From contig OZ020246.1 in NCBI GenBank assembly GCA_963971285.1, positions 17,901,217 through 17,965,216 on the forward strand: a stretch of 64,000 bases of DNA, written 5' to 3'. The position numbers and the translations under genes were made by a program. Of this stretch, positions 23,901 to 55,139 are shown piece after piece. Each line of letters starts with the position of its first letter. The first letter of the stretch is position 1. Origin of the DNA: Astropecten irregularis (Eukaryota > Echinodermata > Asteroidea > Paxillosida > Astropectinidae). The notes beneath the pieces were generated by a model. It saw only the letters and a program-made list of their open reading frames with translations. It searched no databases and had not been told where the DNA came from.

Positions 23901-26900
23901 GAGCTTCAAACCAATAGGACAGGCCAACTAATTTCATACTATTTACAAGCACTGACTCAATCATCACATCCAAATGATTGAAAAGTGCTTTACCTACAGC
24001 TATACAGGAATCATAATCACCAGATAAGCTAGCATAACAGTGAGGCTAGTTAGGGGTTGTTGAGTGCACTTTAAATGATCCTTTTGCATAGAGTTAAATA
24101 AAAAACTAGAGTGCGCGCTTCGTATTCAATGTGCGTGCTCTCGGCACTCTGGCACGGACGCGCAGCCGCCATTTTAGTTGGGGTGACTGAGCAACCGCAG
24201 TAGAGTCCAAAAACGGTACCCGATGTTACTCGAAGAACTGCGCGCACTGTGCGTGACGCGACGTATATTTTATGCACAGTGCTGCGCGCACGAACCGAGG
24301 TAAGACTATGTATGCACAATTTGAAACGGGACGCGCGCGTTTTCCCTTGTTTCCTTAATGCAATGGCGCTGGCCATGGTTCGAGCAACAGAGTTTTTTAT
24401 TTAACTCTATGTCCTTTGGATATTGTGACATGTGAGTGGTTTCGTGACTTTAGATTTGCAACATAGGCCTAAGGAGGCCTGGAGAACTCAGTTGGCTGAG
24501 CACCCATACAGTATTCTGTAGGCCTGGGCAATTAACTCGATTAATCGATTAATCGCGATTACATTCCTGTGTCGATTACTCGATTAGTAAATTCTGAACT
24601 ACTCGATTAATCGTGCCAGCGCGATTAGTGCCTTCGAGTTGCGATTAATTCCATGAGTTACTACTCATTCTCAGTCGATCAATAGCCATGCCGTGTGTGT
24701 TGCATGGAGCAGCTGCATAGACTTGATGACAAGCCGTTAGACATTCGTGTTTTGTCCGTCCATCTGTCAAGGAACAATCATTGTGCAATGTGCATCATGC
24801 ATCATGCATCGTTCGTATAGTGAGGCAACGCAATCTTCAATAGGGGTCGAGGGTGTATATGTGCCGCGGTCGCGTCCCCGCATGTTGGACATTATGCAGG
24901 ACGTACACAGTGTAATATGAACACGCACACCGTACCCCTGGTGTTGCGGTAAAATTACCGACTTGATATCAAGTCTGCCTGCTGCACGTGCACCGGAAGC
25001 CCGCCCAATTGTGACAGCACCATGACAACATTTTGAGATACTGCCTTATATGGTCAACGTGGATAAGACATGAATGAGGGCTATACCATTTCGTTGTTTA
25101 TTGAGGTATGAGGTACATTTAGTATGTTGCATTTTCAATGAATACTATTTATCTCACTTAGTAATAAAACGAAAGGTTGTCGCACACAAACATGATTTAT
25201 TGGATACATAAGGTTTAAACGTGTCGGGGTGAATTTTTATTCAAGCCTGACAGCTGACAACGAAGTTTTTCTCAACCTATTGGCCCACGTGTTTACAATG
25301 GATTCGGCTACCATGGCCGGCCAGCGAGGCTTGGCGCATGGCGCATGCATGGCGCGATGCATCATTCAACTACTCGAGTACGGACGCTACTCGAATAGAC
25401 GATTACTGTATTGTATCGTATGGTATAATAATCGTGAAGTGAACATGTGGAGTAATCGTGAACTCGAAAATAATCGCGATGTGTGTAGTAATCGTGAGCT
25501 GTGTAATAATCGTGTTCACTGTTCAGTAATCGTGAACTGTGTAATAATCGTGTTCACTGTTCAGCCTACGTGGGGTGTACATTGTGTCATCGTGTACTAT
25601 ATCGTTGACCTGTACATGTATGTCTGGGTGTACGTACGTGAGGCAGTAGCTGCATGCCTTGTCGGCCAACACTTTGCGAAATTACCCTACTTTATTGAAG
25701 GAATACCAATAATTATGGACGATATAAGCTTCACGAATTCTGCATTATACCTTATCAGAACAAAAATGGCATAGGCTCAATGCCTCGGATATCGGAACTG
25801 ATCGCTGTTGAAACTTGTAAGAATCAATGCATTACGCTAGTGCAGTTTACTGCAGTGCCGCTATGATGAAAACAAGGTACGTGCTGCTTGTATAGTCACT
25901 TCCGGGTAATCGTGATTAATCGATTAATCGCGATTATTTCCTCCGCGATTAATCGATTAGTGAAAAGCACTAATCGCCCAGGCCTAGTATTCTGTAGGTT
26001 GCAGGTTCAAATCCCGCACCAATCAATTTTTTTTTGCATCTGTCAACGACGAGAAAGACACTGTTCAGCCAACTTACATTTCCAACATAAACTGATCTGT
26101 TGTCAGCTTCTTGCTTGTCCTCCGGGGACAATGGTCCGGATGGAGGTGGGGAACTCATGTTCATTTGTTTCTCCACTTCATTCTGTAATTCCTTTAGCTT
26201 CTCTGCTTCTTCTTCCATCTCCTGTACACGAGCTTTGATTGCCTCCAACTCCTACATACATCAAGGACAAACACAGGATGAGATTATTGTGTTCAATTAC
26301 AAGACGTTTTGGCCTGGGCCCAATTTTACAGCACTGCTAAGAAGATAAGTCACAATCTCAACTATTTTTTGTAGCAAGTCGGCACATAAGGGCATGTGTC
26401 CAGCTAACTTTCCCCTGCATACATGTTGAGACTTGATTATCATTCTTCATGTCACTGGATCTCCTCATAATTTCCCCAAAACTCAAAACCCTGCCAACTT
26501 TCCAAATCTTTACTTAGCTTGTTGACATCAAAATCATAACAAACATTGACAAACAGGGCGATTGTGGGTTGACGGGATCCCAAAACACATTGATTTTTTT
26601 GGCTCTGAACTAACTTCTACTCCTCAAAAATGATACTTTTGACTTTCAGCAAATGTTCCTGGGTCCTTAAAAGCCTAGATTGAAGAAATTTGTTAAACAT
26701 TTCAGGGTTAAAATTCAATTTTCTTACGCACTTCTTGTAAACTTTAAAACAGACCGTCTGATCGCGTGAGGCCATTTTGTCTGGTCTGGTTAGTCTAGTG
26801 CCCAGACCCAACAGATCAAGAGTCCTCAAAATGTCAGAGTGGAAACCAGACTATTCTCGTCTAGTCTGCGGCCGTCCGTGCAGCGGTGAAATGTTACAAT

Positions 26901-34733: not shown

Positions 34734-37262
34734 TGAGTCGATGAGTTTCTGTTACAACATTAAAACAGATGTTTGCAACGTCTACTAAGAAAGTGAAGCT
34801 CTTCACTTAATTCAAATGATTTAGAATCAGATATTCTGTAAAAGCATCCTTGATGACAAGCTGGAGAAGAAAAAGCACATAAAAAGATAATGTTATTCAA
34901 AAACTAAAACAGCAACGTTATGTACATAATAGGTGCATACTGTTGATTACTACAATAATCAACAAAAAAGTTTTAATAAATGACACAAAACATTCAACTA
35001 TTTGATATTAACAGAGCCTTAATTTACTTTGCTGGAGCTCTATTTATTCTTCATTAATGATTACAGACTTGATGGCATGACTGATTTGGTTGTCAACTCA
35101 ATGCTAGGACGAATACACCTAATCCATGACGTGACACCACGCCATGTGCAAATACTTTACTGTATGCACAGCGAAAAATCCCTTACACGAATTGGCACGA
35201 AACGGCCGCAAGAGGGCGTCACGATCATCTCATTATGTGACGTCATTGCACTGACCAAAAATGGAAGTTTTCATGAATGAAACTGACGCGCATGGGCATA
35301 TACTCAGCGATGCCCACTCCAACCATAGTTACTTCGACAGACCTCGCTACGATCTTTCGAATGGTACCAAAAACATACAAATTTGTACATTTCTTCGACC
35401 TTTTGACCATTTTTTGTGGTGTCACCCGACGTTCGAGAACTCACAGACACCGCAGTCGTATTTGAACTTTGGTGAGCTGTATTTTTGTTGTCATTTTACC
35501 GCGAAACCGCGCCACTGTCTGAGTGTTATTGTTGGGACGTTGAATATTCATATAACATGTGTTGGGTTGTGTATGCTGAGAGCGCCACATGAATATGCAT
35601 AGAATTGCATGGTCACCCGGAGATGTCGTACGGCCGACTGTTGATCGTTTCGTAGTCGTACACCGCGTGTGTTTGCATAGGCACATCGCGTGATGCGTGC
35701 TCCGTACGTGCCTACAACGGCATTGCGTGCGTGCGTAACGAGTTGGGCAAGCACATGGTTCCCGTGACGTCACGAGCACGGCCTTGCGCGTTGATCAATC
35801 AGCGCGGCGCTTGTCACACACAGCACTGTTTACATCCGTGTTACAGTACATATGGGGAATTTTTCGCTGTGGTATGGTGTGCTTATTCAAGTACAAATTC
35901 AATCATTATAGAGTTAACTTTTTGGATACAAGTCATGATGAACTTCAATCTCAGGTGTGTAAAACTGGGGTAGGATATCTGAAAAGTGAGTTTTAGAGTT
36001 TTTTTACCTACAAATTGTACACTTCCAATACAGTGGCAGCCATTTTCCACAAAACCCCTCAGCCCTCTGTTGATTCCATACATACAATTCAATACAATAG
36101 AGTTGTGCACAAATGATGGTCGTCAGTGGAAATTGAATTCTTTCCTGAGTAGGCAATCACCGAGTCAGATCTGCAGATGGTACACACCAAAGATCCTATA
36201 GGCCTATCTTTGACTTTGGTACACAATACGGTTTACCATGCGCTACTGCTGCTGCACTAGTTAGTTATCATTCATGGTTATCAAAACTAGTGGCAGTGCA
36301 GCAGCGCAGCACAGCGCATTATGCTATCCTTTGTGCAGTTTTTTAGCAATCGACTAAATCTTTCTTACAAAACGTTCCCTTGAAACATTCACCGTATGCC
36401 AATGCAAATCTTTAAAAAATGTGTCCACAGTATAAGAACAGACTTTATACTCACCACTGACCATATCCTACATTTGATCAAACTTCATAAAATCAAGTTA
36501 TAACCATCGTTTTTATTTCCCAAAGTGTTGATCATTTACTATCACTCTGTTTCCTTGATGTCATAATAATGTCGGGAATCGAACTGGTTCCCGTCAACCT
36601 ATTGCATTGAAAGTATTGATGACGACCATGTAAACCAGTGTTTGACGTCATCTTGTAACATGAATAGACTAGACTGGTCACCGTACCCCAATGCAGTTAT
36701 AATTATGTAAATTTAAAGGTTCTATGCAATAGGAATAATATTATGGCTGGAACATGTGCCAAAAATAAATTGTTACATGGGCCTTTGGTTTTACCCACTT
36801 CCGCACACTGTTTCAAAGTTAACAGCAGGTTTTTTTTGTATGCTAATAAGTATTTCGATATTCATGAGCAAGGCTTTGTGCATGCACAAACAGTTGGGTT
36901 TGTTTTATAGGTTTTCTGCTGACAAACCTTTTCCCCTCAATGGGTTTTATTGTGTTGAATATGTTCCTTTCACTCAACTGGTGGTGTAATTTTTTTGACC
37001 AACCATTTCTGTGTATGTGGGTCATGTTTGCCTCTTCATTTGTTTATGTTTTTTCATTATATTTTGGCTGTTGGGTCCCTACATGAGTAGCCTATGCATG
37101 AAAATCCTCCATTTTTCCGAAGCCGTTCAAAAGAAACCCAAATGCTGGTTTGAACTTTGAAACCAAAAATAAGACTTGCCATTTATTATATGTCAGTATA
37201 TTCTCTGTCTGAAGGCAATAAAATAACCTGCCTGAAAAAAAAACACTGCATGAACCCTATAA
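34734..37262. promoter_or_regulatory. Upstream region of the PPxY gene with a CpG-richer stretch
   Basis: Between about 35100 and 35850 the DNA is clearly CpG-richer than its surroundings and contains two full CRE palindromes, TGACGTCA at 35238-35245 and 35765-35772. This may be a promoter for the PPxY gene (-), for a + strand transcript, or both. The ORFs here (for example 35261-35602) have no recognisable domain. The rest is AT-rich and empty. Confidence 0.35.
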
Positions 37263-37778
37263 TACGGAGCCCCTAAAGGGACATTCAATTTTTTTTTTTT
37301 TATCTCGTGCGCACGACATATTATCTCGTGCGCACGACATATTATCTCGTGCGCACGACATATTATCTCGTGCGCACGACATAATTATCTCGTGCGCACG
37401 AGATAATTATGTCGTGCACAAAAGACGAGGAGTCAGCTGTTCAACTTGCATGTTCATGCCGTTCACAAGTACAACACCAAAAAGAGGTCATATCTCTAAC
37501 AAATACAGGTATAGTTTCCATTGTGTTTATTTGTATTGAATACTTCTTTATCCCTTTGTTAGATAATTAAAAGACATTTTTAGTATCTCGATCGGGCAAA
37601 ATGTTCGATGTGAAGTTCGATGTGTAAAGTTAGTTACCAATTACATGTACAAAGGCTAATGTGAAACCCTGCTGAGTGCTACAACGTAGGCTTCTACAAC
37701 TACTTCTAACCACTTAACCCCAACCCATGTATACAAAAGATGACCACCAAAAAAAGTGTAATTTGTTTTTGGTTTCAG

Positions 37779-38756
37779 ATGATAACAATGAATGCTGATG
37801 ACATGACGGCGAATTGTTTGGATGTATGCCTACAACACGTCCTCGGATCCCCGGATCCCCGGCTCATTGGGGGATACTTCATGGAAGCTGTGGAATCTCT
37901 GTCTGGATGCCCAAAGTTCGTTCGGGTGATCATGGCACAGAGAATGGCTATGTGAAAGATATACAGACATTTCTACGGATGGAGGACAACAATGAAGATG
38001 TTGACAGTAGCTACCTGGAGGGCCCAAGCACGGCAAATCAAAGGATTGAATACATGTGGTCAATTTTGCGGCGAGAATGTTCAGACTACTGGATTTGCCT
38101 CTTCCAGGATTTATAGTTGATGAAGGGGAATTTGCTGGTAACTTTCTTGATGTGAATCTCATTCAGTTCTGCTTCATGCATCTTAATCGGGTGGGTACAG
38201 TTAATTTGTATGTTGTAACCTAGGTTATTGATGGCAAGGGTTTTTTGACAGGGAGGGGCCATGATTTCAGTAGGGGTTGTGGAATCCCCTGAAACTATTA
38301 TTTCATTGGGTATATTAATTGATATGAACATATTTGTATTTTTTAATTTTTCATATTGTGATCACCTTATACTTCAACCAATCCCAATAATAACAAGTGA
38401 TGTTTTTCTTTTCTTGGTCCACAGGAAGAGCTGGATGAAGTTGTCAACACTTAGAATCGGCACTTAATCCGACCATCAAGAAATGCCCGGGTACCCTTCG
38501 GCCGTCCCAATATAATGTACTTCTTGCCAGGACTTTATGCCTATCTGCAGATTTCCTCTGTAATACATCCCCAGAGCGAGTTCGTATTGCCAAGGAAGAA
38601 TGTAGATACAGAAAGCGAATCCCTTGTGATGAAGATGTGCATGAACTGTGCTGTTCTCTCATGGCTAACAATGGTTATGAATTTCCCAAAGACTCAGAGT
38701 CAGCTGTAAACCTGTACACAGAACTCAGAGACACAATTTCTCAAGTGTTGATGTAG
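37779..38756 (+). pseudogene. Decayed integrase-core-domain transposase gene
   Basis: Fragments in three frames line up with the animal integrase-core family found in many transposon-derived genes. In order: PRLIGGYFMEAVE (about 37850), then a frameshift, then RSGDHGTENGYVKDIQTFL and STANQRIEYMWSILRRE (37920-38090). Another frame change leads to GNFLDVNLIQFCFMHL (38130-38185), then an apparent intron, EELDEVVNT followed by an in-frame stop (38426-38454), IRPSRNARVPFGRPNIMYFL, and finally EECRYRKRIPCDEDVHELC to a TAG at 38754-38756. GDHGTEN probably carries a catalytic acidic residue. Only the C-terminal half is recognisable, and several frameshifts and a stop prevent expression. It occupies the middle of transposon C, as expected for its transposase. 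Confidence 0.75.
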
Positions 38757-40183
38757 TACATGTATCAATAATAAGCCTGCATCAGTGAATCCGGCTCGTT
38801 ATGGGGGCATTTTGTTCTAAAGGCCGGGTACAATTTCCTTCCATCTGTAAATGTTTCCCCCTATTTGTACGGGTGGTGTAAGATGAGTTAACACCTCAAT
38901 TTCAAAATTACAACTGCTGTCAAGATAGTGTGTCAAGAACAAGAATGAAATGATTTAAGCTGCTCACTATTAACATCAAATTACCTTCCAACAAAGGCAA
39001 TTTTTGTATTGGTTAATAAAAACTGTTTCATTAATCTGTTTCTTTAGAAACTTTTAAAATGACCAGGAAACTTGACCTTTCATGTATGTGAACTACATGT
39101 AGCAATTGAGCATAATTCTTTAAAGAATCGTTCTGGAACTCATTTGTTTCAATGTGAAAAAGGATGAAACATTTTGATACAAATATAGCGTTTGATGAAT
39201 GTTTCAAAAGGCCCATGCAGGATTTTATTGTACGTCTTAGTGATTTCCAAAAGCATTGATCAAAGTAAGATACTGTAATACATGTACCTTATTAATGACG
39301 TCCTTGTGATGTCAGTTCTCAATAAAATGTAAACACATGCTAAAGAAAGATTCTTATTATCTGGATGAGCAGCTGATCCCCATAAACTTTTCAAAATATT
39401 TTTGGCAAAAATACCTACAATTTGATTGAAACATTCCATGCTTGGCAAGGCTGTCTCTTGATGTCACTTGCTTGATGTCACTTACAGATTGTGTTAAATT
39501 TTCAAATAAAACTTATGATTCACCGGAATAAAGTTGTTCTTTAAAAGTTCTTTTCATTCCCGTCCTGTCTTCTTCTTTGCTAGCGTTCCACTGGTATGAT
39601 TTTGTATGAATCTGGTTGATTGAAATTTTCTGACTGTTTTATATACAAGCATAGAGGTAGAAATAGAGGCAGAGGAACACCCCTGTTCTTCTCAGTTGAA
39701 ACGTCAGTTAGCTGTTTTCACTACCATAAATCATGTTAGTTCCGCTGGTCCCCCCCCCCCGGTGTCCACCGCCTGTGTTTTAGCTATATTGGGGCGTCGT
39801 AAGTTTGTTAGACTGCTGGTGCGGGCACATTTCTTCGCCTTTTTTCCTTTCTCACCACGACCCTCTCCCATCCCTACCCATCTTCCACCCCCTCCAACCA
39901 CCTTCCACCATCTAAAGAACTATACTATGCCTCAAAGTTTGTTTGAGCTCGATCACACTAATAATTATAAGCTTTCAACTTCTAAGAGAGCAGTCCGGTT
40001 TTTCGTTTTTCTGAGCTATCATGGAGGTAGAAAAAGAAAACAAAGATGACTCTATAACTATGTATGTGTCCGTCATTTTGTTTGCATTGCGGTAAGACGT
40101 ACCATTTGGGTCCGCTCTCCTGACATGATTTGTGTAACCACGGCTACATGTATGATTTTGCCTTTCTCTCCCCACACATAATT
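38757..40183. other. Non-coding right half of transposon C
   Basis: No convincing ORF. An inner segment has a C-run and CT-rich DNA (39750-39905). The 117-codon ORF at 39696-40049 is low-complexity and not called. Confidence 0.4.
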
Positions 40184-40589
40184 TTGTCGTGCGCACGAGA
40201 TAATTATGTCGTGCGCACGAGATAATATGTCGTGCGCACGAGATAATATGTCGTGCGCACGAGATAATTATGTCGTGCGCACGAGATAATATGTCGTGCG
40301 CACGAGATTAAAAAAATTTTTAGATGTCCCTTTAGGGGCTCCGTACTTTAACTACGTATCCTCTATGTTTTATTAATTACAGGTGTAGTAATAATTTCTT
40401 CAGCGTGACTGCCTCCGCGTTCCATGTAAAACGTTGAATTTTTAGGAGTACGGTGTATAAGTGTATTTGGTTTGGTTTTGTTATTCATGTCTTTTTATCA
40501 ACACAAGTAATTAAACTGAAACTACTCCTCAGCCAAAATAATGTCCTGAAATTTCAAGAAATGCTTGGCGTTAGGATCGAGGGCCTGAC

Positions 40590-42388: not shown

Positions 42389-44123
42389 TCACACCATTTT
42401 AAAAGGTTCCATATATAAGAAACCCATGATACATAAAGCCAAAATGTGAACATAACTGCAAGGCACAGAGCTGGCAGAATTTACTTGGCATTCGAGACCA
42501 TTTCCCTCAAAGACCGGACAGGTGTCAAAGTCTCCCAGACAACGCATCATCTTGTTAGCCTCGCGCTCTCCAGAATCCAATCCCCCAGCTATATAGCCGG
42601 TAAGGGCAACGGACGTCGCTTCACCTCCGAAGAAAAGACGACCAACCCGGCTTTGAAGCTTGTAACGACAACTGAACGGGACCTCCACGGGGACGTTGGA
42701 GTAGGCGCCCATGGTGAGCGGGTTTTGGGACCAGCCCGACACAAGGATACCGGTGGCTTCTGGAATTCCGTCGCCGTACAGGTTGCGGAGCACCGCCTGA
42801 ATCTCAGCTTTAGTCTCGGCCGAACTTTGTGCCTCAACTCGTCGGGATTCGTCACCTTTACGTGCAAAGAAAATAAAACAAATATTTATATTATACTCAC
42901 GTTGAAGAAAGACACAACCAGTTAATCGTGTAGTTTCTGTAGTACATTCAAGAATCCCGATCGCAACCGGATCATAATGCTATATAGCGGGATCTTTCAC
43001 TTTACGCATTGGTTATTTTAGAGACCCCTCCACCAAGAGGTATGATGATTTTCTCACCAGCAACTGTGACCATCATCAAAGGTGTACCTCCAGGAAACAG
43101 ACCTTCTGCCTGGTAGTTGAGAAACAGTGGATAGTAACCCCTTCTGTCGTTGGCATGGAGAATCCACTCAGTGTCGTCCCAAAACTTGCTGGGAAAGCTG
43201 ACGTAAATGTTGGAGTAGTCAGCCATTTGGAATTTATTGATCTCAACAACTTTCCATTCAGGAAGAGGTGGGATGAACTGGATCGAGCCGTGCTGTAAGA
43301 CACCGATACTGAAGGTCATCAGAACGTATTCGCCGACGAAACGAGTACCATCATCACAGGTAACAGTGACAGATATGTCATTGGAGTAGTCGATGGATGC
43401 AACTTTCTTATTCAGACGAGTGTGGTTGACATACTTTGGGGTTTGTAGAAAACCGGCAACATCGTCGAAGATTCGTCCGTATCCTCTCTGATCTGTGATG
43501 AAGTCTATGACTTGTTCATCTGTGGTCTCGACAGCTGATCGGACCGAAGATACCTCGGGAGACTCCCCATACTCGAAATCGTACTCGAACCATTCTATTG
43601 CTTTGTCAATTGCACTATTTGGCTGCCATCCGCCAATTCGGAGAGCTGAGCGTTGTGACATATCTGGTATTTCGGCATTTTTATTTAGAGATGCCCTCAG
43701 TTCTTGTAGTTTGCTGATTCCTTTCTCCAGTAGTTCGTAGTTTGCATCTGCTTCATTGGTGACATCGTGTCCTGTCCCGTTGCGAATGGTCAGGCTGTTA
43801 TAGTTGCTCTGATGGCGACTCAGGTTGAGTTTCTGTACGATTTGGTCAGTTTTGGAATTCTCTGGTGCTGCCCACAACGCACCTAGTCCCACAGTCATGC
43901 CAGCGAATTGGGTACTGTGAACACGCCCGCCGATTCGGTCGGCTGCCTCAATGATGATGAAGTCGTCATGGCCGGCATCATGGAGTGTCCTGGCCGCTTG
44001 CAAACCAGAGGCACCGGCGCCTAGAATCAAGAATCTAGCTTTGTTTTCAGCTTGATGGTTTGATGCGTGAGCATACAAACAAAACACGGTGAAAAGAAGG
44101 TAACGACGGGTAAGGAATAGCAT
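42389..44123 (-). CDS. Secreted flavin-containing polyamine oxidase, copy 1
   Basis: There are two exons: 44123-43058 and 42855-42389, joined by a GT-AG intron in phase 1; product 510 aa, about the length of maize polyamine oxidase. A signal peptide spans about 1-20. The Rossmann FAD motif is G35-A-G37-A-S-G40, with E59 positioned for the ribose and RIGGR at 63-67. The C-terminal FAD motif is GRLFFGGEATS (about 427-437) with GYIAGGLDSGE. The region from SFPSKFW and NDRRGYYPLF to KAEIQAVLRNL follows the plant/animal PAO pattern. The last 22 residues are hydrophobic and might be a membrane or lipid anchor. The enzyme would oxidise polyamines or a related amine, releasing H2O2, outside the cell; the exact substrate cannot be read from sequence. 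Copy 2 encodes the same protein. Confidence 0.9.
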
Positions 44124-49090: not shown

Positions 49091-50825
49091 TCACACCATT
49101 TTAAAAGGTTCCATATATAAGAAACCCATGATACATAAAGCCAAAATGTGAACATAACTGCAAGGCACAGAGCTGGCAGAATTTACTTGGCATTCGAGAC
49201 CATTTCCCTCAAAGACCGGACAGGTGTCAAAGTCTCCCAGACAACGCATCATCTTGTTAGCCTCGCGCTCTCCAGAATCCAATCCCCCAGCTATATAGCC
49301 GGTAAGGGCAACGGACGTCGCTTCACCTCCGAAGAAAAGACGACCAACCCGGCTTTGAAGCTTGTAACGACAACTGAACGGGACCTCCACGGGGACGTTG
49401 GAGTAGGCGCCCATGGTGAGCGGGTTTTGGGACCAGCCCGACACAAGGATACCGGTGGCTTCTGGAATTCCGTCGCCGTACAGGTTGCGGAGCACCGCCT
49501 GAATCTCAGCTTTAGTCTCGGCCGAACTTTGTGCCTCAACTCGTCGGGATTCGTCACCTTTACGTGCAAAGAAAATAAAACAAATATTTATATTATACTC
49601 ACGTTGAAGAAAGACACAACCAGTTAATCGTGTAGTTTCTGTAGTACATTCAAGAATCCCGATCGCAACCGGATCATAATGCTATATAGCGGGATCTTTC
49701 ACTTTACGCATTGGTTATTTTAGAGACCCCTCCACCAAGAGGTATGATGATTTTCTCACCAGCAACTGTGACCATCATCAAAGGTGTACCTCCAGGAAAC
49801 AGACCTTCTGCCTGGTAGTTGAGAAACAGTGGATAGTAACCCCTTCTGTCGTTGGCATGGAGAATCCACTCAGTGTCGTCCCAAAACTTGCTGGGAAAGC
49901 TGACGTAAATGTTGGAGTAGTCAGCCATTTGGAATTTATTGATCTCAACAACTTTCCATTCAGGAAGAGGTGGGATGAACTGGATCGAGCCGTGCTGTAA
50001 GACACCGATACTGAAGGTCATCAGAACGTATTCGCCGACGAAACGAGTACCATCATCACAGGTAACAGTGACAGATATGTCATTGGAGTAGTCGATGGAT
50101 GCAACTTTCTTATTCAGACGAGTGTGGTTGACATACTTTGGGGTTTGTAGAAAACCGGCAACATCGTCGAAGATTCGTCCGTATCCTCTCTGATCTGTGA
50201 TGAAGTCTATGACTTGTTCATCTGTGGTCTCGACAGCTGATCGGACCGAAGATACCTCGGGAGACTCCCCATACTCGAAATCGTACTCGAACCATTCTAT
50301 TGCTTTGTCAATTGCACTATTTGGCTGCCATCCGCCAATTCGGAGAGCTGAGCGTTGTGACATATCTGGTATTTCGGCATTTTTATTTAGAGATGCCCTC
50401 AGTTCTTGTAGTTTGCTGATTCCTTTCTCCAGTAGTTCGTAGTTTGCATCTGCTTCATTGGTGACATCGTGTCCTGTCCCGTTGCGAATGGTCAGGCTGT
50501 TATAGTTGCTCTGATGGCGACTCAGGTTGAGTTTCTGTACGATTTGGTCAGTTTTGGAATTCTCTGGTGCTGCCCACAACGCACCTAGTCCCACAGTCAT
50601 GCCAGCGAATTGGGTACTGTGAACACGCCCGCCGATTCGGTCGGCTGCCTCAATGATGATGAAGTCGTCATGGCCGGCATCATGGAGTGTCCTGGCCGCT
50701 TGCAAACCAGAGGCACCGGCGCCTAGAATCAAGAATCTAGCTTTGTTTTCAGCTTGATGGTTTGATGCGTGAGCATACAAACAAAACACGGTGAAAAGAA
50801 GGTAACGACGGGTAAGGAATAGCAT
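49091..50825 (-). CDS. Secreted flavin-containing polyamine oxidase, copy 2
   Basis: Exons are 50825-49760 and 49557-49091. Every base that I compared, introns included, equals copy 1 at 42389-44123, so the 510 aa product is the same: signal peptide, G-x-G-x-x-G FAD site, RIGGR, and C-terminal GRLFFGGEATS. Identity that extends into the intron and flanks means either a very recent duplication or one allele assembled twice. Substrate and function are as for copy 1. Confidence 0.88.
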
Positions 50826-52950: not shown

Positions 52951-53339
52951 TCGACTCGTTATTGTTTTGTCTGATCCACAAACTTGCCTTAGTACAGCGC
53001 CCTCTTTGGCGGACAACTCAACGTCATTGGGCGAACTCCACAATACTCACACGACTGAATGCCAGTCTATAATAAAATCTGACTATCGTATTTAACGTAT
53101 ACACATATTGTATATATTCAGAAGACAGGATTCCAGACCAAGACGTCACAGCGAGTCAAAGAGCGGAATCGTCTGTGGGTGAGAACTTTAACTAATTTCG
53201 TAAGTTGCTTTTGTAGAAATAAAGCCTACTTAGTAAAATATATGGATTCCACTTCTAACACTCTTATTCCACCGCTGTTCATTATTGATTTGTGGACCAT
53301 TATTGTTCGAATTGTTCAAAGAGAAGAAAGTAGATAGTA

Positions 53340-55137
53340 TCGTGGCCCTGAAGGGACATTTTTTTCACGACTTGTCGTGAATTTTTTTGCGACTAGGCCT
53401 AGTCGTGAATTTTTTGCGACTAGTCGTGAATTTCTGCGACTTGTCGTGAATTTTTTGCGACTAGTCGTGAATTGTTTGCGACTAGTCGTGAATTTTTTTG
53501 CGACTAGTCGTGAATTTTTTTGCGACTAGTCGTGAATTTTTTTGCGACTAGTCGTGAATTTTTGCGACCAGTCGTGAATTTTTTTGCGACCAGTCGTGAA
53601 ATTTTTGCGACTTGTCGCGAATTTTTTTTTAGTTTGCTGGGTGGTCGGGGACTGGTTTTCTGAAAATCTCAGGGCCAACCACGGAAGTGTAAATAGTTCC
53701 CGTCGGTGGGGCCAACTACGGTAGTGTGTAAAGGGGGAGCAAAATCATACATGTGGCATGTGGAAAGCAAAAAAGGAGAGACAGGTCCCATTCGTCTATA
53801 AACCACAAGGCAAACAAATTGATGGATAAATATAATGGGGAGACATCTTACTTTATTTATTTGTAACACAGAAAATTAGAAGAACCGGAATGCGCTCCAA
53901 AGTTTATTCAGAAGCTTTTATCCGTGTGGTGTAAACCAAGAGAGGCATCATAATTCTAGATCTATTTGAAAATGGTTAACGGCGGTGGGAGTAAGGGTGG
54001 GATGGGGTGGGAGGAATGAAGGAAGGGGGAGGAGAAGACAGGTATAGGACGACGGGAAGGGGAGGTAATGCTAGGGGTAGGGTTGGGTATGTGAGGGGGA
54101 GGAGGAAGAAAGGTGGATGGGAAAGAAAAAGGGAGAGGGGGAGGAGAATAATGGGTGAAAAGGAAAGGTTTATAGGTAGAGGTGAGGTGTAGGTGGAGGG
54201 TGGGGGGAAGTGAAAGGAGAAGGGGGTGTGTGGAATGAGGGTGAAGGGACAAGGAGGGGAAAGGGTAGATGTAGAAGTACGGACGGTGGGGTGGGTGGGT
54301 GGGTTAGGTTATAGGAGAAAAGGAAAGAGGAAAGAGAAAGGGTTGAAACAAGAAAACAAGGGAAAGAAAGGAAAGACGGGGATAGGAAGGAAGGGTGGAG
54401 TCCTGAAATATGTGATATCACTTTGTTCAAATATGACAAAGATATAGCATTGCGCTATCAGGACTTGCTCAAAAACTGACTTCGCACAGTAAAACTGCCA
54501 AAACTTACCATCTTTAACCCCCCAGGTACGGAGGTTTAAAATACATTTCTAGTTTAATTTAAACACTATCCTTTAGAGGAATAATTGATCTTTATTTCGG
54601 CGAGCGAACAAAATTAATACGTTAAGCAGAAGTTGAGATATGAGACTGGAAACGTCAAAAATAGGCTATTTTTCTAGGCTTTTGGAGACGATTTCCGCTG
54701 TTTGAGTATAGTTGCTCGCTTAGGTTGTACAGACAAATTCATATGTCGAGTTTCGACCTCGAAAAGGCATGCACAGTGACCAACGCAAATTACAATGTAT
54801 AGCATGCACAAAGTACATGTAGGCCTACTATGTACGTGAGACGTGTGTGGCCCTACCAGGCCTGGCAGGGCCGGCCGACCCCCTAGCCAACTGAACAATT
54901 ATTCATGTCTAGTTGCAAAAAAATTCACGACTAGTCGCAAAAAAATTCACGACTAGTCGCAAAAGAATTCACGACTAGTCGCGAAATATTCACGACTATG
55001 TCGCAAAAAATTCACGACTAGTCGCAAAAGATTCACGACTAGTCGCAAAAAATTCACGACTAGTTGCAAAAAATTCACGACTAATCGCAAAAAAATTCAC
55101 GACTAGTCGTGAAAAATATGTCCCTTCAGGGCCACGA
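53340..55137. mobile_element. Transposon D, 1.8 kb, 22 bp TIRs and inverted arrays
   Basis: Perfect 22 bp inverted ends lie at 53338-53359 and 55118-55139 (counting the flanking TA), reading inward GGCCCTGAAGGGACAT. The left array (53366-53630) has about a dozen ~21 bp units of GCGACTAGTCGTGAATTTTT. The right array (54903-55112) has about ten of the reverse complement. Layout and TIR match transposon C (17 of 22 TIR positions). No transposase is left inside; the centre holds a G/A-rich tract at about 53980-54400. It is probably a non-autonomous relative. Confidence 0.85.
53980..54400. repeat. G/A-rich strand-asymmetric tract
   Basis: About 420 bp of mostly purines on + (GGGGAGGAGG, GAAAGGAAAG type) with very few C. 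The ORFs on both strands here are low-complexity products. It lies in the centre of transposon D. Confidence 0.8.
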
Positions 55138-55139
55138 TA

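Follow-up and report, generated by a model that had tools for sequence, protein, structure and literature searches.

The mobile DNA element at 37263-40345 in a stretch of Astropecten irregularis DNA raises three questions: what kind of transposon it is, which protein moves it and what the arrays of short repeats at its ends are for. The stretch, here called the window, comprises 64,000 nt of the forward strand (GCA_963971285.1, contig OZ020246.1:17,901,217-17,965,216); copies and relatives were sought in 475.7 Mb of the genome (168 contigs). The ~3.1-kb element (locus L001) is non-autonomous and has perfect 22-bp terminal inverted repeats (TIRs; TACGGAGCCCCTAAAGGGACAT) at 37263-37284 (plus strand) and 40324-40345 (minus strand). 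Near each TIR lies a subterminal array, the left one at 37300-37417 (unit core TCGTGCGCACGA, period 21-22 bp, 5.5 copies, 96% match) and the right one, inverted with respect to the left, at 40185-40308 (5.8 copies, 97% match). The period given by TRF is 21, and 11 units match TCGTGCGCACGA with at most one mismatch. An earlier sequence-only reading of the window had described perfect 22-bp TIRs and palindrome arrays at both ends, and both descriptions hold; the span it gave, 37265-40343, was right to within two bases per end and is corrected here to 37263-40345. The TIR is well beyond chance, given that its pattern, with up to three mismatches, has 348 genome matches (178 + 170), compared with a single one (0 + 1) for the pattern read backwards.

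The flanking TA, formerly considered as the target duplication, proves to be the end of the TIR itself, and the target-site duplication (TSD) is 6 bp long. The element lies between CTATAA (37257-37262) and CTTTAA (40346-40351), which differ at one position. Across the window and related families, 32 of 41 end pairs are flanked by an exact 6-bp repeat, compared with five at 2 bp and one at 7 bp; at 3-5 and 8-10 bp, no pair is exact. These pairs are those with both ends retrieved, a non-random sample, and the test covers lengths up to 10 bp. Among the nine remaining pairs, four have one mismatch by eye (L001, L007, L041 and L089), L087 repeats 7 bp and no TSD is present in the L076/L077, L085, L095 and L098 pairs, with L076/L077 being two neighbouring copies that were mispaired. 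L089 was counted with its outer end; if the inner end is used instead, an exact 6-bp repeat can be seen by eye, and the figure of 32 was left unchanged. Within the window family, 10 of 12 copies (11 long copies and the L034 copy discussed below) have an exact 6-bp TSD, and in the other two, the window copy and L007, the repeats differ at one position. TA-inserting elements with 2- or 3-bp TSDs (Tc1/mariner, Harbinger) are rejected on these counts. A search for empty sites of both window elements (the second is described below) found no place in the genome with both flanks joined. The left flank (37120-37262) is itself a dispersed repeat, present at 38 other places at 86-90% among 40 scored, and 29 of these 38 copies stop exactly at the element insertion point.

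The interior of the element carries a decayed gene on the plus strand. The relic of its first exon (37783-38220, start approximate; tblastn pieces 37807-38220) has a broken frame, and a fragment of it (37802-38113) matches the Pfam integrase-core family rva_4 with an E of 2.3e-4 and 21.3 bits, below the cut-off of 26. An intron-like gap parts it from a stop-broken relic of the second exon (38425-38756, boundaries inferred by reading), which corresponds to the C-terminal WNxHxIRPSRN..GRP part and has visible homologues in L025, L017, L022, L031, L033 and L039. The relic pieces are 72-92% identical (tblastn) to a frame in L034 (C15:18173952-18175661). This copy is 1.7 kb long, shares the arrays and, apart from one mismatch in one of them, the TIRs of the window element, and is flanked by an exact 6-bp TSD. 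The L034 frame is open (293 aa), lacks the second exon, matches rva_4 with an E of 4.8e-23 and has all three acidic residues; in the alignment of the transposase families, these D, D and E positions correspond. A PDB search returned one weak integrase match (E 0.98). The presence of an open rva_4 frame between the same TIRs and arrays indicates that the protein belongs to these ends. The sequence-only reading had recognized a decayed integrase-core gene between the TIRs, tied its protein to these DNA ends and proposed a genome search for full same-TIR copies with an intact integrase-core ORF. The Pfam fragment and the identity to L034 bear out the first claim; L034 bears out the second, as do the arrays that accompany all nine families of the clade described below; and, since L034 carries the ORF, the objection that other copies of the TIR pair never contain it is rejected. 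That the ORF lies within an unrelated nested element is rejected, since L034 and the long copies carry it too.

The family appears to have multiplied by means of a transposase made elsewhere. In none of the 11 long copies examined, among them the window copy, is there homology to residues 1-158 of the transposase; in each it starts at residue 159 of 293 of L034. The missing N-terminal stretch takes in an HTH-like part as well as the first catalytic Asp. In Pfam, HTH matches of the transposases are below cut-off. The window copy carries further breaks beyond the common deletion. The ten other long copies occupy further genomic sites; nine of them have an exact TSD and one has a single mismatch, and the deletion is common to all. 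Long copies with TSDs of their own and a common deletion imply that the family spread after the deletion and was moved in trans. One locus, L040, contains ~1.1 kb of additional sequence peculiar to it. No complete two-exon gene lies between exactly the window TIRs among the matches listed (~100 of 348), and L034 is the only examined rva_4 locus with a window-family TIR nearby; others with located ends have ends of their own. C97 (L039) is rejected as the autonomous partner, as it starts at the contig end and its first 12 kb contain no match to the TIR or the palindrome. At ~C97:2315-8013 (L039/L100), frames matching P2RX7_C, a MULE-like domain (below cut-off) and THAP stand beside a truncated relative, apparently as part of another transposon.

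The right part of the element is shared with other families. A ~660-bp module (39520-40176) begins where C97 (L039) homology ends; it recurs, at 74-87%, in non-autonomous families with other ends or arrays (L041-L046) and in dispersed copies (L051-L056) where no such ends were found. A module common to other families that starts where the C97 homology stops indicates that the window element is a mosaic, in which a deleted transposon is combined with this module.

Another non-autonomous element in the window (53338-55139) is built in the same way, with the TIR TATCGTGGCCCTGAAGGGACAT, an exact 6-bp TSD (AGATAG) and arrays of 21-22 bp with CGACTAGTCG at 53361-53627 and 54901-55117. Four further near-full copies of it (96-98%) are found on C18, C9, C27 and C8. 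As a small control, 16 tiles of 3.5 kb each were taken from the window; one of them has such an array, which is that of this second element. A diverged short array around ATAATCGTG (25439-25560, period 18-20) is not closely like the element arrays. Elsewhere in the window, two pairs of ORFs (159 + 373 aa) at 42446-44123 and 49148-50825 read alike and form a tandem duplication ~6.7 kb apart; the 373-aa ORF resembles flavin amine oxidase by eye.

Related transposases are numerous in this genome, and a subset of them is consistently accompanied by arrays. The genome search with rva_4 gave 61 matches, merged by hand to 50 loci, of which 30 were examined, each with flanks of 1.5 kb. A tree of 15 representatives groups nine families (L017, L021, L022, L025, L027, L028, L031, L033 and L034) with support of 80/94, at a node that lies outside the starred nodes and with a warning of long branches from the tree program; L016, L020 and L037 fall outside this clade, and L009, L011 and L013 are far away. 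All 18 examined loci of the nine families have an array of period 21 or 22 (4 to 38 copies, 70-97% match), which in every one of the 18 stands 5' of the transposase gene. None of the 12 other examined rva_4 loci has a 20-22-bp array with four or more copies within the 1.5-kb flanks. Among these related transposase loci, L016 has a 31-bp array and L037 a 53-bp array, equivalent to ~3 and ~5 helical turns. Array units are specific to the family, such as TCGTTCGAACGA in L033, TTAGGGCGTTATAACGCCCTAA in L025 and AATTCGTTTTAACGGATT in L022, with one containing GCGGCCGC in L017 and one containing ACGTACGT in L031. All located element ends begin with TA (TACGG, TACGA or TATGA, with TATCG also among the termini); an end of the L027 family and the right end of L033 were looked for and not found. 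In the sister pairs L025/L028, L031/L033 and L021/L022 the ends are alike by eye; the array units are alike in L025/L028 and L021/L022, but not in L031/L033.

Full-size elements could be located in three of the families, with a TIR and an array at both ends and lengths of 7 to 13 kb, and one C15 pair spanning 25.5 kb; nine of ten such pairs have an exact 6-bp TSD. Their size accounts for the outcome of a 14-base TIR and TSD scan within 1.5-kb flanks, which recovered only L034 and one doubtful L021 pair. In two full-size interiors (L061 on C9 and L102 on C21) and beside the L033 transposase (L057 on C1), a long frame occupies the strand opposite to the transposase. The L061 frame matches Pfam HECT (E 2.2e-9). 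The L102 frame has no Pfam match at E 0.01 and is 28% identical to the L061 frame over 284 residues (E 1.3e-37), and the L057 frame is 33% identical to it over 348 residues (E 1.4e-60). Searching the genome for the L061 protein yielded 43 matches, which merging by hand reduced to 32 loci. At a chosen pairing distance of 12 kb, 22 of these 32 HECT-like loci lie near an rva_4 locus, compared with ~0.25% expected by chance. Nearest pairing places 21 of the 22 in convergent orientation, and for the last of them the convergent partner is the second of two closely spaced copies. Ten HECT-like loci have no rva_4 partner, six of them short matches on C11; conversely, 22 of the 50 rva_4 loci have a HECT partner and 28 have none within 12 kb. 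Partners occur in seven of the nine array families (L017, L021, L022, L025, L028, L031 and L033), and no HECT match was found near L027 or L034, nor in the window or the other examined copies of the element's family. HECT pairing also occurs at L014/L015/L036, where such arrays are absent within 1.5 kb.

The window element is very probably a non-autonomous member of IS3EU/GingerRoot, an assignment made from termini, TSD and transposase kind. According to the text of Kojima and Bao, TA..TA termini are found in every complete IS3EU family, the TSD is usually 6 bp, and the IS3EU/GingerRoot transposase is an IS3/IS481-like DDE enzyme without HHCC (PMC10045372). The same three marks are found here: TA..TA termini, a 6-bp TSD and open transposase frames that, where scanned, score above the rva_4 cut-off and show no HHCC N-terminal zinc finger by eye. 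The group had been put forward as undescribed or poorly described; the first of these terms does not stand, as these are the marks of published, if little-studied, IS3EU/GingerRoot elements. Termini here include TATGA, TACGA and TATCG besides TACGG, and the ~21-22-bp subterminal arrays are a further difference from IS3EU as described in the texts searched. As described in the text on rust fungi, TET-bearing IS3EU have ends TAYGG..CCRTA and an alpha-kinase gene opposite to the transposase, whereas the second gene here is HECT-type (PMC12730594). An ancestral IS3EU with two proteins is proposed in the text on the fungal element Styx (PMC10853768). The word 'subterminal' is absent from these three articles as far as their main texts go (PMC10045372, PMC12730594, PMC10853768). 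Within the body of papers searched, none joins IS3EU with HECT, or the HECT domain with DNA transposon terms; searches on subterminal arrays found Galileo, with no IS3EU by title among the matches listed, and those on IS3EU and amphioxus yielded nothing with IS3EU among the matches listed.

Other groups with related enzymes fit less well. Ginger1 and Ginger2 share an integrase-related DDE transposase, but they are rejected because their TSDs, given in the text as 4 bp and as 4 or 5 bp respectively (PMC10045372), match none of the 41 pairs, which favour 6 bp. IS481EU, with TSDs of ~4, 15 or 25 bp, is likewise not supported, with none of the 41 pairs exact at 4 bp and 32 at 6 bp, in a test that covers lengths up to 10 bp; its TNT..AYA termini would fit the TAT..ATA families here, but not TACGG. 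It is very improbable that the integrase-core ORF is captured cargo and that an unrelated transposase moves these ends. Such a reading could draw on the missing N-terminal half in all 11 long window-family copies examined, but in nine families whose ends differ, the ORF adjoins an array and has the D, D and E positions; TSD length and termini also fit IS3EU.

The reading we favour, and consider probable, is that this is an element of the IS3EU/GingerRoot kind, moved in trans by an rva_4 transposase, with arrays that are predicted phased binding sites for that enzyme. Another copy would supply an rva_4 DDE transposase, which would pair both ends, cut at the TA..TA termini and insert the element with a stagger of 6 bp. 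Most likely, the arrays are putative transposase-binding sites in phase; they would act as rows of sites for dimers, probably bound by the N-terminal HTH-like part. With units spaced by about two helical turns, bound dimers would lie on one face of the DNA, and rows of them could give short sites greater avidity and specificity. Lying 5' of the transposase gene, an array could also serve self-regulation. Full-size relatives would carry convergent transposase and HECT-type genes between array-bearing TIRs, and the window copy would be an internally deleted derivative. Several observations weigh against this reading: HTH matches fall below the Pfam cut-off, no two-exon gene was seen complete between these TIRs among the matches listed, L027 and L034 lack a HECT match nearby as do 28 of the 50 rva_4 loci, the node of the nine families is supported at just 80/94 and no empty site turned up.

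Rows of short subterminal protein-binding motifs also characterize En/Spm (CACTA) elements. There, TNPA binds the subterminal repeats; the transposase is another one, the TSD is 3 bp and the motif is a non-palindromic 12-bp sequence. Galileo/Foldback elements have a THAP-domain P-type transposase and are, to our knowledge, unrelated by sequence to the elements described here. Within the P superfamily, they offer a likeness in their long ends, whose tandem repeats hold several transposase-binding sites; as reported in the text, the Galileo THAP domain binds multiple sites in the element ends, which provides a precedent for arrays as transposase-binding sites (PMC3688188).

That palindromy is not shared by all units also counts against the favoured reading. 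Among 14 units of 19-22 bp, nine reach a level of palindromy that no more than 65 of 2000 shuffles equal, and four are weakly palindromic (L017, L027, L028 and L031; 107-170 of 2000). The unit of L096-L099 is non-palindromic despite a nearly window-type TIR; of the longer units, the 31-bp one of L016 is non-palindromic (1418 of 2000 shuffles) and the 53-bp one of L037 is matched by 79 of 2000. The arrays could instead be passive minisatellites that lengthened through slippage within the ends and were carried along as the element spread, in keeping with a unit number that ranges from 4 to 18 per complete long copy of the window family and with the non-palindromic unit of one family. This is quite unlikely, as nine families with different units keep the same 21-22-bp period and the palindromy of nine of the 14 units is seldom reached by shuffling.

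A somewhat less remote alternative, which is still unlikely, is that a second protein, either the HECT product or a host repressor or activator, binds the arrays in a TNPA-like manner, so that their role would lie in regulation or protection and not in recognition of the ends. The place of the array 5' of the transposase gene in all 18 array-clade loci and the pairing of a second gene with the transposase would suit such a role, as would some short TSD-bearing copies with only one or two units: TRF detects arrays in 13 of 16 short copies and none in L087, L088 and L089, which have one or two recognizable units, yet a TSD that is present or nearly so. These copies with few units also weigh against the favoured reading and lower our confidence in it. 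Arrays at both ends of full-size elements and in those 13 short copies speak against it and for a role in movement, as does the finding that sister transposases have similar ends and, in two of three pairs, similar units. Binding by the transposase stays the preferred reading. The 150-bp L086, with a single array of four units between its TIRs and an exact TSD, suits a palindromic unit that is neutral to orientation. Two other short copies with the window TIR, L084 and L085, have a longer palindrome (TTTCGTGCGCACGAAA); in L085 its units are spaced by 19 and 23 bp, which shows that the 21-22-bp period, too, has exceptions.

More tentatively, this IS3EU-type lineage may be a two-gene system of a transposase and a convergent, ubiquitin-ligase-like HECT gene, with family-specific 21-22-bp operators that would hold rows of transposase dimers at two-turn spacing; the 31- and 53-bp outliers would keep the helical phase. 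The HECT product, whose role is inferred, might act on host or transposase proteins in a way that favours transposition. Two features may be new: the 21-22-bp arrays with family-specific units in all 18 clade loci examined, and the HECT pairing in seven of nine families. Animal integrase-core (rva_4) genes, familiar to the sequence-only reading mainly as lone genes, are tied here to defined transposon ends. Several families in one genome have a common layout of TIR, ~two-turn array, transposase and convergent HECT gene, and their different operators on one spacing form a natural series for following how a transposase and its binding sites change together.
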